Both the position numbers and the translations under genes were made by a program. A model generated the notes under the pieces. That model searched no databases, was not told the DNA's origin, and was given only the letters and a program-made list of their open reading frames with translations. From Candidatus Heimdallarchaeota archaeon (GTDB taxonomy: Archaea > Asgardarchaeota > Heimdallarchaeia > Heimdallarchaeales > Heimdallarchaeaceae), in contig JAGLTP010000616.1 of NCBI GenBank assembly GCA_023135215.1, forward strand, positions 1 through 10,497: 10,497 bases of DNA, written 5' to 3'. Of the stretch, positions 1 through 8,180 are shown piece after piece. Position 1 is the stretch's first letter, and every line of letters begins with the position of its first letter.

Positions 1-959
1 ATGAATCTGTTGATATCAGAGGGATTTTTCATAATCATTCCATATGCTTTACTATCCTGATAGAATACGAAAGTATGTTTGTCCTTGTTTTCTTCAAGGA
101 ATTTTGGAATATTGGTTGGAACGATTTCATCCATCTCAAAGAATTGTCTGAACTCATTCATGTTAGTTTCAGAAACCTTAACCTTAGCTAGGCACCTATG
201 TGTAGCTAAAATCACCAGACCCTCATCTTGAACAGGAACGAGATATGTCATTCTAAAATTATATGCATCATCATCTTTCCATAAGCCTGCTTTTTCTCTT
301 CTCATGTTTCTATAAGTAACAGCTGTCTCATAGCGATGGTGCCCATCAGCTATAACCAGTTGTTGTTCCTTGAATACGTCTTGAACAATACCTATTTTAG
401 CAGGATCTGTTAATTTCCAAACTTTGTTAAGTACACCTAATCCGTCTTTCCCTTCGATAATAGGTGTTTCATTAGCTATTTCATCAAAAAGTCGAATTGT
501 TCGTTTTTCAGGATCAGAATAGAGGATGAAACCTGATTCAAGTGTGTGTCTTGTTGTTTTTAACATGTTCAATCTGTCGATTTTAGGACCTTTGTGAGTC
601 TTTTCATGTGGTAGAACTATATTATCTTCAAAAGGATATAATCGTAAAGCTCCGATGAATCCTTTCCTCACATATTTTTCTCCGAAAAGCTCATATTCTT
701 GATAATAAACATAAATTGCTGGTTCAGCATCCTTCACAACTATTTCTTCTTCTAGCCATTTTACTAGTCTTTCTCTTGCAATTTCGTATCGGTTTTCTTC
801 AGTTGGCAAAGTCAGCCTGCAATAATTATAATCTGATTTTGCATAATACTCATTTTGCATTTCTTCATCAATTTTATCATAAGGCTGAGCTATCAAATTT
901 TCGATATTTCCTGCTTTTCCTGTAAATCTAATCGCTCTAAATGGTTTAATATCTACCAT
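1..959 (-). CDS. DUF1015 family protein (partial, C-terminus outside window)
   Basis: The 319 visible residues begin MVDIKPFRAIRF and read off the left edge without a stop. The family usually exceeds 400 residues, so roughly the last 100 are missing. I recognise DUF1015 from three conserved blocks: QPYDKI (residues 25-30), HEKTHKGPKIDR (118-129) and ADGHHRYETA (204-213). The function is not established to my knowledge. The DGHHR block resembles the motif of the ParB/sulfiredoxin-like fold, which includes the archaeal free-serine kinase SerK. From memory, DUF1015 genes often sit near serA and serC in bacteria, and both enzymes are encoded 3-5 kb away here. A role in serine or phosphoserine metabolism is therefore an inference. 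The ATG at 959-957 follows GAGGT (976-972) at 12 bases, which is long. An in-frame TTG at 968 would add three residues, but the family N-terminus fits the ATG. The gene is divergent from the actin-like gene. Confidence 0.88.
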   Translation of the reverse strand, partial: MVDIKPFRAIRFTGKAGNIENLIAQPYDKIDEEMQNEYYAKSDYNYCRLTLPTEENRYEIARERLVKWLEEEIVVKDAEPAIYVYYQEYELFGEKYVRKGFIGALRLYPFEDNIVLPHEKTHKGPKIDRLNMLKTTRHTLESGFILYSDPEKRTIRLFDEIANETPIIEGKDGLGVLNKVWKLTDPAKIGIVQDVFKEQQLVIADGHHRYETAVTYRNMRREKAGLWKDDDAYNFRMTYLVPVQDEGLVILATHRCLAKVKVSETNMNEFRQFFEMDEIVPTNIPKFLEENKDKHTFVFYQDSKAYGMIMKNPSDINRF

Positions 960-1056
960 ATTTATCAATCAACCTCTCTAGAAACTCTATTTTAATTTTT
1001 GTATTAGAATATAGATTCAACTAATTGAAAATGAATTAATCACCCCATAAGATAAA

Positions 1057-1084
1057 TGATATACCATATTCGAATGGTATATCA
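1057..1084. promoter_or_regulatory. Inverted repeat in divergent promoter, probable operator
   Basis: There are two perfect 11-base arms: TGATATACCAT at 1057-1067 and ATGGTATATCA at 1074-1084. They are separated by ATTCGA. A third, imperfect half-site (AGATATATCA, 1091-1100) lies just downstream in the orientation of the right arm. The repeat lies between the DUF1015 gene (start 959, minus) and the actin-like gene (start 1159, plus), just upstream of the latter's TATA-like box. That is where an archaeal dimeric regulator would bind. The regulator is unknown. There is no T-run, so a terminator is unlikely. Confidence 0.5.
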
Positions 1085-1109
1085 GATTTAAGATATATCA
1101 TCAATAAGG

Positions 1110-1118
1110 TTTAAAAAT
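1110..1118 (+). promoter_or_regulatory. TATA-like box for the actin-like gene
   Basis: TTTAAAAAT lies about 45 bases before the ATG at 1159. An archaeal start site about 26 bases downstream would fall near 1140, leaving a leader of about 20 bases. No Shine-Dalgarno sequence is visible in that leader. The call rests on AT-rich composition and spacing only. Confidence 0.35.
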
Positions 1119-1158: not shown

Positions 1159-2622
1159 ATGTCAAAGAGTTCGAAAAAAACTAAACCAAAACATTGCGGG
1201 AAAACAATGAATACCTTGTATATCAGAAAAGGCACTGATAAAAGAAAATGGATAGCTGTTGGTTATTTTTGTGAAAAATGTAATGAGATGGTTAAAGAAG
1301 AAGACTCTATTCAAATCAAAAGAGTAAATGAAATACAAAGCGCTCCAAATAGATTAGTTAGTAAAATTAGTAGACCAAAAGGCATTGTTATTGATATAGG
1401 AGAAAGTTTTACTAAAGTTGGTGTATCAGGGGAATCCACCCCCAGATTAATATATGATACTGCTCTCTACTTTGATAAGACGGGGGAAGTTTTTATTCAA
1501 GAATATAATTTTATAGAAAAAATCCGAGAATTAGAAACAAAAACAGCAATTTTTTCTAGAGGATCCAAGGATGAAGTGGAAGTCAATATTGATCACTTTG
1601 AAATTTTCATGAACCTAATTTTCTCTGAATTAGATTTAAATCCTTCAAAAACTGATATTCTTCTTATAGAAAAACCAAACATCATAGACTCTGCAGATAG
1701 TTTTAAGGGCAGAGAAGATTTAATCAAAAATAGTTCTTTACCTACAAAGGTCAAAGAATTTCTTCTCAAAGCAAAAATAGTCGAAACTAAAGACGGATTA
1801 GTCATACCTCAGATGATAAGAAGACAAATGGCTCAAGTGCTTTTTGATAGGTTGAATGTTCCAAGGATATATTTTTCTGTTGGAGAGATACTTGCACTTT
1901 ATTCAACTGGTAGAACTACTGGCGTTATAGTAAGTGTAGGGTCTAAGACAACTAGAATTGTTCCCATTTACGAAGGGTTCATCATATCTCATGCTATTAG
2001 TATAAGGCAAAAAGGAGGAATGAATGTTGTTGATAAAGTAGTTGATTATATTGAGAAACAAGGCATAAAAATCGATGGTTCACCATTTAAAAGAGAGTAT
2101 ATTCTCAAAAACACTAGAATCTCCTCAGAGGAATTATGCTATATTTCGCAAGATATTAGAACTGAAGAGAAACTTTGGCAACAATCTGACAGACATATTA
2201 GATCTCTGAATGTAGTAAATGACTCTTTTGTGAAGTTGGATAGCATAAGATATTTAGCTCCTGAGATTCTATTTGAAAAGGAAAAACTGAGTGTTAGTAT
2301 GAAAGAAGGAAATCTTGTTGATGCTGTAATTGAATCAGTCGAAAAATGTGATCGGGATTTGTTCAAGTTATTAGTTGACAACATCATTCTTGTTGGAGGA
2401 GGAACTATGTATGATGGATTTGATGAAAGATTTTCCCGAGAGATAAAAAACCGACTAGAGAATTTTGAAGTTAACGTTTCAGCACCCGTAGAGAGATTCA
2501 TTTCAACTTGGATAGGAGGATCAATCCTTTCGACACTTAAAATATTCGAAGAAAAAAATGTATGGGTTACGCGAGCAGAGTATGATGAGCAAGGATCAAA
2601 ATCAGTCGATAGATGTATATAA
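1159..2622 (+). CDS. Actin-family (ARP-like) protein with N-terminal zinc ribbon
   Basis: This 487-residue protein has two parts. Residues 1-48 look like a small zinc ribbon, with His12/Cys13 and Cys38-x2-Cys41. Residues 75-487 are an actin fold by eye: phosphate loop 1 (IVIDIGESFTK, 76-86), GRTTG...VPIYEG (251-273), the adenosine loop GGGTMY (413-418) and the C-terminal WIGGSILSTL (451-460) and EYDEQG (474-479). The match is closer to eukaryotic actin than to MreB or FtsA. Key residues differ: actin Gln137, Asp154, Asp157 and His161 align with Gly242, Ser259, Ser262 and Arg266. Ser14 aligns with Glu82 and Lys336 with Phe447. The region of the actin hydrophobic plug is charged (LFEKEKLS, 371-378). 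About 45 extra residues (around 176-220) follow LLIEKPN. I infer a protein that may bind nucleotide but hydrolyses poorly and may not polymerise, like several eukaryotic ARPs. The start is the first ATG after the promoter and includes the ribbon. The gene faces panE. Confidence 0.88.
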   Translation: MSKSSKKTKPKHCGKTMNTLYIRKGTDKRKWIAVGYFCEKCNEMVKEEDSIQIKRVNEIQSAPNRLVSKISRPKGIVIDIGESFTKVGVSGESTPRLIYDTALYFDKTGEVFIQEYNFIEKIRELETKTAIFSRGSKDEVEVNIDHFEIFMNLIFSELDLNPSKTDILLIEKPNIIDSADSFKGREDLIKNSSLPTKVKEFLLKAKIVETKDGLVIPQMIRRQMAQVLFDRLNVPRIYFSVGEILALYSTGRTTGVIVSVGSKTTRIVPIYEGFIISHAISIRQKGGMNVVDKVVDYIEKQGIKIDGSPFKREYILKNTRISSEELCYISQDIRTEEKLWQQSDRHIRSLNVVNDSFVKLDSIRYLAPEILFEKEKLSVSMKEGNLVDAVIESVEKCDRDLFKLLVDNIILVGGGTMYDGFDERFSREIKNRLENFEVNVSAPVERFISTWIGGSILSTLKIFEEKNVWVTRAEYDEQGSKSVDRCI

Positions 2623-2629
2623 CAATAAT

Positions 2630-3682
2630 CTACTTCATTCCCCATATTTCCTTAGTTTTTTGCTCTAGTTCCTCTAATCCTTTTAGAGATGGTTTCTTCT
2701 TTCCTTCTTCAATTTTATGTATTTCTTCAAGAACATATGAGTTAAGAGGTGTTTTTACTCCATATTTTTCTCCTTCAGTAATCAGATATCCATTTATAAA
2801 ATCAAGTTCTGTTTTTCTCCCAATTTCAATTGATTGAAGACTTGATGACCTCAGATTTTTGTATTTCCTTCCTATTATTTTGATTATTGTTTGTTTAAGG
2901 AAATGCTTAAAGGACAGACCGCTTAGCTCTTTTTTCGTCAATGCTAAGAAGTCCATATTTAGATTATTCATTTCCTGTAGTTGAACACCTTTCTCTTTAG
3001 CTACTGAAACACCTTCGGTAATTACCGTTAAGAATGCTGTTCTTGTCATCTTTCTCCTTAACATCTCTCCTAGAGTCATACCACTTATTACACCAAAAGA
3101 TGTTACTGCCAAGTTTATAAGCAACTTGGTGAATTTTTCGTTCACAATTTTATCAGACCAGGTTGTTGGAACTGTTTTCGATAACAATTCTATGAGTTTA
3201 TCATCAATTTCTTGCTTCTTTCCATCCATTCTCCCAATGACCATTTCTCCAGAAGAGGTCTTGATTGATTCTGCATGCCCAGATTTAGTTGCACCAAAAC
3301 TAACAACACAACCTAACAGTTGACTCTTATTGATTAATGTACTGAGTTTTTCCTCAATTACACCATTTGTCATTGTAACCAGAGTGAAATTCTTAGCTAG
3401 TTTTTCTTTGACTCTGTTGAAAGCGTCTTCTAAATCTGTAAGTTTAGTTACCATAAAAACTAATTCTAATTCCAATGGAAGATCTTCAATAGATAAAACA
3501 GGTAGAAGATTCTCCTTTACTACATACTCACCATCTACTCCAGTAACTCTTAAACCTCGTTTCTTTACTAAATCAAGTGTCTCTTGATGTTTACATACAA
3601 CATAAAGAGAAAAATCATTCTTAGCTAAATCTGCAGAAATTATTGTTCCAATAGCTCCTAAACCAATTAAAGCAGCTTTCAT
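2630..3682 (-). CDS. panE: 2-dehydropantoate 2-reductase (ketopantoate reductase)
   Basis: The 350-residue protein is full length for the PanE/ApbA family. It would reduce 2-dehydropantoate to pantoate with NADPH in the cytosol, for pantothenate and coenzyme A. The N-terminal Rossmann loop is GLGAIG (residues 7-12). TNG (105-107) carries the conserved Asn. The catalytic Lys is probably Lys186 in KFTKLLIN, with Asn190 following. The C-terminal domain has SSSLQSIEIGRKTELDFING (279-298), with the substrate-binding Ser and Glu292 in the expected places. The extension after residue 325 is charged and not diagnostic. The ATG at 3682 is preceded by a T-run and no ribosome site, and a TATA-like box about 25 bases upstream suggests a leaderless transcript. 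Its stop is 7 bases from the end of the convergent actin-like gene. Family members acting on other 2-keto acids exist, so the exact substrate is inferred. Confidence 0.9.
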   Translation of the reverse strand: MKAALIGLGAIGTIISADLAKNDFSLYVVCKHQETLDLVKKRGLRVTGVDGEYVVKENLLPVLSIEDLPLELELVFMVTKLTDLEDAFNRVKEKLAKNFTLVTMTNGVIEEKLSTLINKSQLLGCVVSFGATKSGHAESIKTSSGEMVIGRMDGKKQEIDDKLIELLSKTVPTTWSDKIVNEKFTKLLINLAVTSFGVISGMTLGEMLRRKMTRTAFLTVITEGVSVAKEKGVQLQEMNNLNMDFLALTKKELSGLSFKHFLKQTIIKIIGRKYKNLRSSSLQSIEIGRKTELDFINGYLITEGEKYGVKTPLNSYVLEEIHKIEEGKKKPSLKGLEELEQKTKEIWGMK

Positions 3683-6551: not shown

Positions 6552-8180
6552 ATGAGCATTCAAGATAGAGATAAGCAGAAGGCTGCATTAGAAAAGACAC
6601 TTCAGAAATTTACTGAACTACTGCCTTCTGTTAGTCCTGTACCTACTCCCGTAAAAAAGGCGTTAGTCATAATCAATGGTACGGCAAAATCCAGAACAGC
6701 AGTTTTGCTAGCTGAAGAATTGAATCGCAATTTTGGAACTGGTATAGATGTGGTTTGCTTCTATTCTGAACAAAAACAAGAGATTGATGATAGTACAAAA
6801 GAAAGTTATGAAAATACCTTAGCTTTTGCATATGAACACCTTCGGAGTAAAGAATTTGAAATAAAGGGACATGTTGTTGAAAATATCGATATGCTAAAAA
6901 ACATTCTGAACAATGTGATTCAAGCTACAGAATATGACATAATCATTGTTCCTTCATCATTTATAGGAATGAAGAAAGTAAGAATTCTAACCGATGAAGA
7001 AGATACTGAAGCTAGCATAACTGTTTTAGGAGATGTATTTGAATATCTTCTAGAAGATATCGAGGATATTCCTCTCTTACTTGTTCAGAGTGAAAGGGTT
7101 AATCTGGAACTACTGTGGAAAAGTATATGTGTATTATTCAGTAGTAGTAGTCAGATCAGTTTACTGTTTCAGAAAGCTCTCAAATATAGTCTGAAAAAAG
7201 CTGATATTCACTGTTTTTTGAACATTGAACCTAACTTCCATGAAGAGAAATCGGAGGATGAATTCACTGATTATGTGAATAAGAGTAGAGAGGAAATTGA
7301 GAGGTTCGAAAGGGCAAATTCTGAGGTTTTTAAAGAAGCTTCTAGATATGTTGAGTTCCATTATCTAATTAATCAAGAATTAGAAGTTCTAAAGGATGAA
7401 CTTGCAACTTGTGGTAAAGATGTTGGTATTCTAATTATTTACATGCCTTCAAAACATTACAGACTCTATGGGCTCTTCACAGAATTATTGGAAGATCCTG
7501 AGATTTCTTTCCCAATCCTTATAACGAGACGAAAAATATCCACAGTCAAAGAGGAAAAAGAGAAAGAAATGGAAGAAGAAACATCACAAAAGGAAATTGA
7601 AGAGGAAATCTTAGATGATGAGAAGGAAGAAGAAGAAACAATTACAATTGACGATACAATAAAAGAAACCATTAAAGAAGAAGTAAAAAAGGATATACTT
7701 GGAAAATCGGAAACTAAAGAAGAAAAAGAGAAAGAAATGGAAGAAAAAGTAAGTAAAGAAGAGGAAAAAGAGAAAGAGGTAGAAGAAATGGGTGAACCAG
7801 ACAAAAAAGATGAGGAAGAATTGTCAGAAATTGAAGAACTCAAAGAAGAAGTCAAAGAAGAGATCAAGAAAGAAGTGAAGAAAGAGATCAAAAGTGAACC
7901 CAAAAGAGAAGTGAAGAAAGAGGTTTCCAAGGAGCTCAAGAAAGAAGAGAGTATGGTAGAGCTAAAGGAAACCATCATCAATGAAATTAAAGAAGAAATC
8001 AAAGAGGAAATTAAGTATGAGCTCCGAAAAGATTTGAAAGAGCCTAAGAAGGAGCTAAAAGAGAAAGTTATAGAAGAAATTAAAGAAAAAGAAGAAGAAG
8101 AAGAAGAGCTCAAGAAAGGAGAGAGTGAAGAGGAAGAAGAAGAAGATGAGGAAGTAACCTCTAGAATGGAATTCGAATAG
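6552..8180 (+). CDS. Tandem USP-like protein with long Lys/Glu-rich C-terminal tail
   Basis: This 542-residue protein has two adjacent domains that look like universal stress protein folds. The first spans about 35-180: strand KKALVIING, then YDIIIVPSS, then GDVFEYLLEDIEDIPLLLVQ. The second spans about 186-327: SICVLFSSSS near the start, VGILIIYMPS, then FTELLEDPEISFPILITRR. The usual G-2x-G-9x-G(S/T) ATP-binding loop is not clear in either, so nucleotide binding is uncertain. Residues 334-542 are almost entirely Glu and Lys with occasional hydrophobic positions (KEEVKEEIKKEVKKEIK and similar). This segment probably forms a long charged helix or coiled coil. It includes three related units of the type EEKEKEMEE (334-342, 390-398, and a variant at 403-411). 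No signal peptide or membrane segment is seen, so the protein is cytosolic. The transporter gene follows 122 bases downstream on the same strand. A role in stress response or transporter regulation is an inference from family and context. Confidence 0.7.
   Translation: MSIQDRDKQKAALEKTLQKFTELLPSVSPVPTPVKKALVIINGTAKSRTAVLLAEELNRNFGTGIDVVCFYSEQKQEIDDSTKESYENTLAFAYEHLRSKEFEIKGHVVENIDMLKNILNNVIQATEYDIIIVPSSFIGMKKVRILTDEEDTEASITVLGDVFEYLLEDIEDIPLLLVQSERVNLELLWKSICVLFSSSSQISLLFQKALKYSLKKADIHCFLNIEPNFHEEKSEDEFTDYVNKSREEIERFERANSEVFKEASRYVEFHYLINQELEVLKDELATCGKDVGILIIYMPSKHYRLYGLFTELLEDPEISFPILITRRKISTVKEEKEKEMEEETSQKEIEEEILDDEKEEEETITIDDTIKETIKEEVKKDILGKSETKEEKEKEMEEKVSKEEEKEKEVEEMGEPDKKDEEELSEIEELKEEVKEEIKKEVKKEIKSEPKREVKKEVSKELKKEESMVELKETIINEIKEEIKEEIKYELRKDLKEPKKELKEKVIEEIKEKEEEEEELKKGESEEEEEEDEEVTSRMEFE
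7551..8155 (+). repeat. Purine-rich low-complexity tract encoding the Glu/Lys tail
   Basis: The plus strand is almost all A and G for about 600 bases. Near-identical units built on AAAGAGAAAGAAATGGAAGA occur around 7556 and 7727, with a shorter variant near 7766. The reading frame stays open throughout, so this is coding low-complexity sequence probably grown by slippage or short duplications. The complementary strand gives a long serine-rich frame that is only a shadow. Confidence 0.7.

Follow-up and report, generated by a model that had tools for sequence, protein, structure and literature searches.

A zinc-ribbon-like module fused to an actin-related protein of Heimdall-type Asgard archaea, and the palindrome array before its gene

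We describe an actin-related protein (ARP) gene in a window of 10,497 nucleotides, contig JAGLTP010000616.1 of a Candidatus Heimdallarchaeota archaeon (GenBank assembly GCA_023135215.1). In the open reading frame at 1159-2622 a complete actin fold is preceded, in the same frame, by a basic zinc-ribbon-like module of some 48 residues. We call such proteins ribbon-actins. They are almost certainly a real new ARP family and, judged by sequence, one specific to the lineage of Heimdall-type Asgard archaea. Our overall reading, to which we give not quite an even chance, is that the ribbon-actin may be an actin that neither hydrolyses nucleotide nor forms filaments and whose head binds nucleic acid, acting most simply on its own operator. 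The gene is laid out as follows.

1159..2622, plus strand: ribbon-actin gene, 487 amino acids plus stop
1186..1290, plus strand: zinc-ribbon-like core, residues 10-44, drawn from alignments, conservation and models
1192, 1195, 1270 and 1279, plus strand: candidate ligands H12, C13, C38 and C41 in the ribbon core
1303..1380, plus strand: variable linker, residues 49-74 (mean conservation 0.44 over residues 45-72)
1381..2619, plus strand: actin fold, residues 75-487

The genome set comprised 227 Asgard genomes, some incomplete, screened with a full-length model and with a separate ribbon model (up to the first 6 and the first 29 candidates per genome scored, respectively). The full-length model detected the fusion in 17 genomes. 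The ribbon model recovered the identical 17 (E ≤ 1.9e-22; next match 1.4e-3). Within this set, then, the module occurs only in ribbon-actins, and all 17 have it. Copies in genomes G014, G017 and G022 are truncated near contig ends, that of G023 lacks the last few residues, and the G014 copy additionally has in-frame stops. A protein catalogue lists 32 relatives besides the window protein (86-100% query coverage, at least 40% identity). Where a source is named for these, it is Heimdallarchaeota or Heimdallarchaeaceae, except for one entry labelled simply 'actin-related protein'. The Pfam actin profile PF00022 scores 195.8 bits on the window protein versus a curated cut-off of 27, and ribbon-actin has the four-subdomain actin fold. 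A preliminary description of the window had proposed an N-terminal domain added to an archaeal ARP in one frame, to be checked by searching with the two parts separately; the two models agree on this fusion, and both parts occur together in the 17 genomes. Among the ways it named for the proposal to fail were a ribbon absent from close relatives and a true start farther downstream. The module is instead found throughout the family, its layout is recurrent, and its codons are conserved: between the window and its nearest relative, codons 10-48 differ by 5 synonymous and 0 non-synonymous changes.

A fusion created by a wrong start codon or a chimeric assembly might be read from the database entries P0012 and P0016, which begin at Met17 and miss the start of the ribbon motif, and from the copies in G011 (locus L010) and G022 (L017), which have no ATG, GTG or TTG upstream of the conserved ribbon codons (for both we guess a start at ATT). 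The same layout in 17 genomes and most of the 32 relatives, the conserved ribbon codons, and a DUF1015 neighbour kept in 15 of the 17 genomes leave such an artefact a negligible probability, and we reject it. Viral spread was also rejected, as 27 pattern matches in viral contigs included no relative. One 76-residue protein, P0123, carries the family ribbon and stops ahead of the actin part; its contig is 2.4 kb long, and it may be a free ribbon or a frameshift. The absence of any named family with this layout, suspected earlier, held in Pfam and NCBIfam, where no model covers it. A zinc-ribbon actin was likewise absent from titles and abstract beginnings in a literature search whose coverage excluded preprints and most subscription papers. 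Asgard actins have been described as Lokiactin plus further ARPs with complex histories (PMC9834061, available portion), and the available portions of three other papers name actin homologues without a zinc-ribbon layout (PMC12993045, PMC12050087, PMC10307638).

Conservation was scored over 38 ribbon-actins, non-redundant at 95% identity and not including the G014 copy. Residues 10-44 form the best conserved 35-residue segment (rank 1 of 452), and mean conservation is 0.79 in the ribbon, 0.63 in the actin part and 0.44 in residues 45-72. His12, Cys13 and the Cys38-x2-Cys41 pair, pointed out earlier, proved invariant in all 38, as did the basic loop R23-K24-G25-T26..R29-x-W31; the G014 copy has Glu at 24 and retains all four ligands. 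Alignments of the relatives give, with few exceptions, the family motif P-x-H-C-x3-M-x3-Y-I-R-K-G-T-x2-R-K-W-x3-G-Y-x-C-x2-C. Net charge over residues 1-48 runs from +5 to +12 in every member. Structure models show the N-terminus as a beta ribbon. Three known families, DUF6487, recombinase zinc beta ribbon and Zn_ribbon_6, match it weakly by profile (best E 0.0069-0.038, 21 members); they have a Cys-x2-Cys first knuckle, whereas ribbon-actins have Pro-x-His-Cys. Wherever a curated cut-off is given, namely for member 1 and the window protein, these matches fall below it, as do all listed matches of those two N-termini; for the other 20 members the best E-value was 0.0021. The ribbon likely carries a metal site, and the balance tips slightly toward its binding DNA or RNA. 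Contact with nucleic acid is plausible given the uniformly basic charge together with the dedicated operator array before the gene, described below.

The actin core was compared with 85 other (non-ribbon) actins scored at the same positions. Glu was scored as Asp, and gaps and fragments as lacking the residue; the active-site alignment omits L020 and L086 and never included P0033, and it is only approximate in subdomain 2 and around the insertion. Two features distinguish this core.

1678..1800, plus strand: family insertion at about residues 174-214 (~41 residues), placed between actin positions 107 and 116
1933..1956, plus strand: degenerate phosphate loop 2, with S259, G261, S262 and R266 at actin D154, G156, D157 and H161

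Gln137 and His161 are reported to function in hydrolysis by actin (PMC10062479), and Asp154 and Asp157 in metal coordination and nucleotide binding (PMC3510490), in the portions of these papers available. None of the five positions Gln137, Asp154, Asp157, His161 and Lys213 is kept in 37 of the 38 members, and one is kept in the remaining member; His161 is Arg in all 38. All five are kept in 42 of the 85 other actins and none in one (a fragment), so other Asgard ARPs lose some catalytic residues too. Asp11, Gly13, Lys18, Gly156, Arg210 and Glu214 are each kept in 34 to 38 of the 38 members, and Gly301-302 in 36 of 36. By sequence, the core retains phosphate loop 1 and also part of its adenine side, and has lost the residues for Mg coordination and hydrolysis. 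Between actin positions 107 and 116 every member has 46-49 residues versus 7-8 in all 85 others, an insertion of 38-41 residues found in 38 of 38 members and 0 of 85 other actins. Its loop presumably faces the opposite strand in F-actin. With the catalytic residues lost and the insertion at this presumed strand contact, we infer that ribbon-actins may bind nucleotide without turnover and would not form a canonical filament; ATPase activity has very probably been lost. This agrees with the earlier suggestion that the ARP is attached to something other than a filament. That ribbon-actin is instead an active actin that forms filaments, its N-terminus serving as a cargo tag, is very unlikely, given the five active-site residues gone in 37 of 38 members, the insertion in the presumed filament contact region, and a second, ribbon-less actin gene in 16 of the 17 genomes (the exception is G007).

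Ahead of the gene lies an array of short palindromes.

1058..1065, unstranded: operator site 1, GATATACC, palindrome class GRTATAYC; same spacing in 16 of 18 loci
1076..1083, unstranded: operator site 2, GGTATATC, 18 bases after site 1
1092..1099, unstranded: operator site 3, GATATATC, 16 bases after site 2
1110..1117, plus strand: TATA-like box TTTAAAAA of the ribbon-actin gene, following site 3

GRTATAYC, an 8-bp palindrome, occurs 5 times in the window where 0.40 copies would be expected, and none of 200 shuffles reached 5. Over the window and the 17 ribbon-actin genomes (18 loci, 237 kb), 55 of 76 copies fall at most 280 bases upstream of ribbon-actin, a density of 10.9 per kb versus 0.09 per kb elsewhere, and all 18 loci have two to five sites upstream of the gene. 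The exact triple, spaced 18 then 16, occurs in 16 loci. Across these the spacers have diverged and the sites are unchanged (the window and L061 are near-identical there), and the TATA-like box stands at a constant distance past site 3 in 15 of the 16, one base off in the remaining locus. G008 has five sites, the last immediately before the ATG. G007, whose first site is GGTATACC, has a degenerate third site in addition to two exact ones at spacing 17. In both of these genomes the gene lies at an unrelated place and the sites are still present.

The 18-spaced pair was found at 32 places in 27 of the 227 genomes, against 6 places in 5 genomes for the reversed pattern. Ribbon-actins account for 17 of the 32 (16 of 17 genomes, G008 twice) and a relic in G027 for one, and 14 lie elsewhere. 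Among 30 genomes, 16 have the 16-spaced pair, at 19 places (reversed control, 2 places in one genome): 15 at ribbon-actins, one at the G027 relic and 3 elsewhere. All 17 places elsewhere lie inside open frames of 203-567 codons, a frame being no proof of a gene, and at none of them (227 genomes for the 18-spaced pair, 30 for the 16-spaced) is the pair extended to a triple. Pairs with 5-28 bases between sites were matched in 10 of 12 genomes, in each of the ten at ribbon-actin, and not in G007 or G009; the reversed control gave at most one a genome, in 2 of the 12. Extra pairs of this kind, where examined, lie inside open frames of 182-471 codons and are taken as coding matches. A regulon of paired sites was considered for the extra pairs in G001, G013, G015, G016, G018 and G029, and was rejected, those examined falling in open frames. 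The only triple found away from a ribbon-actin is at G027:C159:6262-6303 (L220 1501-1542), beside DUF1015. At their DUF1015 loci, G008, G009 and G010 have neither the actin nor the array; the array therefore follows the actin rather than DUF1015. A multi-site operator present once per genome, at one gene, makes ribbon-actin itself the first candidate for its binder. The pattern suggests that ribbon-actin is probably autoregulated; that the protein itself binds this operator is a serious possibility, put somewhat below even.

In the mechanism we propose, the actin core would bind nucleotide without turnover and would not assemble into actin filaments. The basic ribbon would contact DNA, the simplest target being the three-site array before its own gene, which would give autoregulation, and the repeated palindromes would invite two or more copies of the protein. 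The nucleotide-bound, non-cycling core could then supply an assembly platform or a signal input, as a sensor. A more specific form, possible but rather doubtful, would be an actin turned sequence-specific DNA-binding regulator: the ribbon would read GRTATAYC, three copies would bind their own promoter, and the non-hydrolysing, nucleotide-bound core would sense a ligand or another actin, coupling cytoskeletal or nucleotide state to gene expression.

Several points weigh against our overall reading. The structure model of the ribbon has only middling confidence, no structural or Pfam match to the ribbon reached significance, and H12 and C13 are directly adjacent, unlike the usual Cys-x2-Cys knuckle. 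Loss of residues is not proof of lost ATPase activity. Single sites elsewhere (0.09 per kb) are slightly above the shuffle level of the window (0.40 per 10.5 kb). The same array would also result if a separate regulator had this single target, and G027 keeps a complete array where the ribbon-actin gene was not found, which fits a relic and also an outside regulator.

Such a dedicated outside regulator is the main rival to autoregulation. On this account, a real but lesser possibility, the ribbon is a protein-protein adaptor docking a dead actin in a complex, in the manner of Arps in remodellers, and the array is bound by a separate regulator of the ribbon-actin gene. Nuclear Arps are described as complex subunits in the portions available of two papers (PMC3510490, PMC6098158), the invariant ribbon could serve as a docking face, and the orphan array in G027 is easily explained by another factor. 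However, no regulator gene was found travelling with ribbon-actin, whose neighbours differ at three genomic places; the triple has one target per genome searched, which is more typical of autoregulation; and the ribbon is uniformly basic. It is improbable that the ribbon binds RNA (ribosome, tRNA or mRNA), with the actin core regulating and the array merely setting expression. Basic zinc ribbons are common among translation proteins, and G007 has a run of proteins judged ribosomal by eye ~5.6 kb from the gene, but no such neighbourhood was seen in the other 16 genomes within the stretches examined, and no ribosomal ribbon family was among the matches listed.

The preliminary description had called for a tree of the actin part with Asgard and eukaryotic actins. 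The first tree (72 rows) omits the permuted or fragmentary L127, L142, L143, L144, L157, L161, L163 and P0038, short rows, and rows at least 80% identical to a retained row; a second (57 rows) had 15 further long-branch or distant rows removed. Ribbon-actins form a single clade in both (support 100 and 100/100, respectively), with a long stem, outside the group of canonical Asgard and eukaryotic actins. Within it the G007 copy diverges first, followed by that of G008 together with P0024. Constraining the clade with canonical Asgard actins gave p 0.042 in the approximately unbiased (AU) test. Lokiactin and the canonical Asgard actins share the actin fold (~29-33% identity) and mostly the same genomes (16 of 17), but have neither ribbon nor 41-residue insertion, mostly keep the catalytic residues, and form a separate clade. 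The loose analogy drawn earlier with nuclear ARPs stands as a possible mode of action. The evidence on kinship with Arp4 points both ways: ACTL6A groups with eukaryotic actins in the tree, but constraining it with the ribbon clade is not rejected by the AU test (p 0.15).

ROK regulators (NagC, Mlc, XylR) have an actin/hexokinase-superfamily fold and an N-terminal DNA-binding domain, a layout that ribbon-actin would share if the ribbon has its predicted role. They differ in that they are bacterial and pair a helix-turn-helix with a sugar-kinase core, whereas ribbon-actin pairs a ribbon with a true actin core; its N-terminus has no helix-turn-helix, being a beta ribbon in the models and having no such Pfam family among the matches listed. 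ROK proteins act as sugar kinases or transcription regulators (PMC4856308, available portion). Arp4 and Arp8, of INO80 and related complexes, are non-polymerising actins, as ribbon-actin would be. The Arp8 N-terminus binds DNA (PMC6098158), and Arp4 binds ATP with hydrolysis not above background (PMC3510490). The available portions of these two papers describe neither a zinc ribbon nor a private operator for Arps, and the insertion site and active-site changes differ from those of ribbon-actin. By analogy, the parallels with Arp8, Arp4 and ROK proteins are functional.

The neighbourhood of the gene is largely shared.

3..968, minus strand: divergent neighbour DUF1015, running off the window; genomic context, probably without a role in the function

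Divergent DUF1015 adjoins ribbon-actin in the window as well as in the 15 genomes noted above. Downstream, a convergent PanE-like gene followed by SerA-like and SerC-like genes is found in the window and in 11 of these 15; the remaining four have contigs that stop at the ribbon-actin gene. Acyl carrier and luciferase-like genes are also conserved next door. A role in serine metabolism, read from these neighbours, was rejected because the gene sits elsewhere in G007 and G008. Thirteen of genomes G001-G030 are ribbon-negative. G010 and G026 have an empty site, with PanE and DUF1015 ~100 bases apart and no ribbon-actin; G009 (3.33-Mb contig) has neither gene nor array; the G021 locus is interrupted by contig ends; and in the remaining 8, PanE and DUF1015 were not both found at the thresholds used. 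The shared neighbourhood, the relocations in G007 and G008, and the empty sites indicate a locus mostly vertically inherited, with relocations and losses. Farther along the window, 6552-8180 (plus strand) encodes a 542-residue protein with no Pfam match and a very long lysine/glutamate-rich C-terminal part; its gene adjoins a CitMHS-type transporter gene in 9 of 18 loci.

Other unusual Asgard ARPs were noted. L143 (G227:C97:100-2200) and L144 (G227:C20:2500-5000), two ORFs of the same genome, align to the actin model with its parts permuted (~73-375 first, then 7-79), as expected of circularly permuted actins or tandem fusions. L115 (G046:C66, ORF 1503-2891, plus strand), in tandem with a second ARP gene, encodes an actin homologue whose N-terminal extension has a zinc-finger-like motif, CPKCGKKF...H....C; by eye it is unlike the ribbon, and among the listed matches in the 227 genomes its sole full-length match is its own. 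L121, L125, L130, L132, L135, L138 and L140 are ARPs of ~490-566 residues that carry, near the C-terminus at about actin position 325-335, some 100-180 additional residues.

Discussion of Asgard ARPs usually treats them as cytoskeletal components. The ribbon-actins are an ARP family of single origin in which conservation peaks outside the actin, in an added module of nucleic-acid type, and their gene has a private operator. DNA binding by the ribbon would mean that non-filament, DNA-linked actins existed outside eukaryotes, and the origin of nuclear ARPs would be open to direct comparison. If it is the sequence-specific regulator outlined above, ribbon-actin would be an actin-core counterpart of the ROK repressors in relatives of the eukaryote ancestor.
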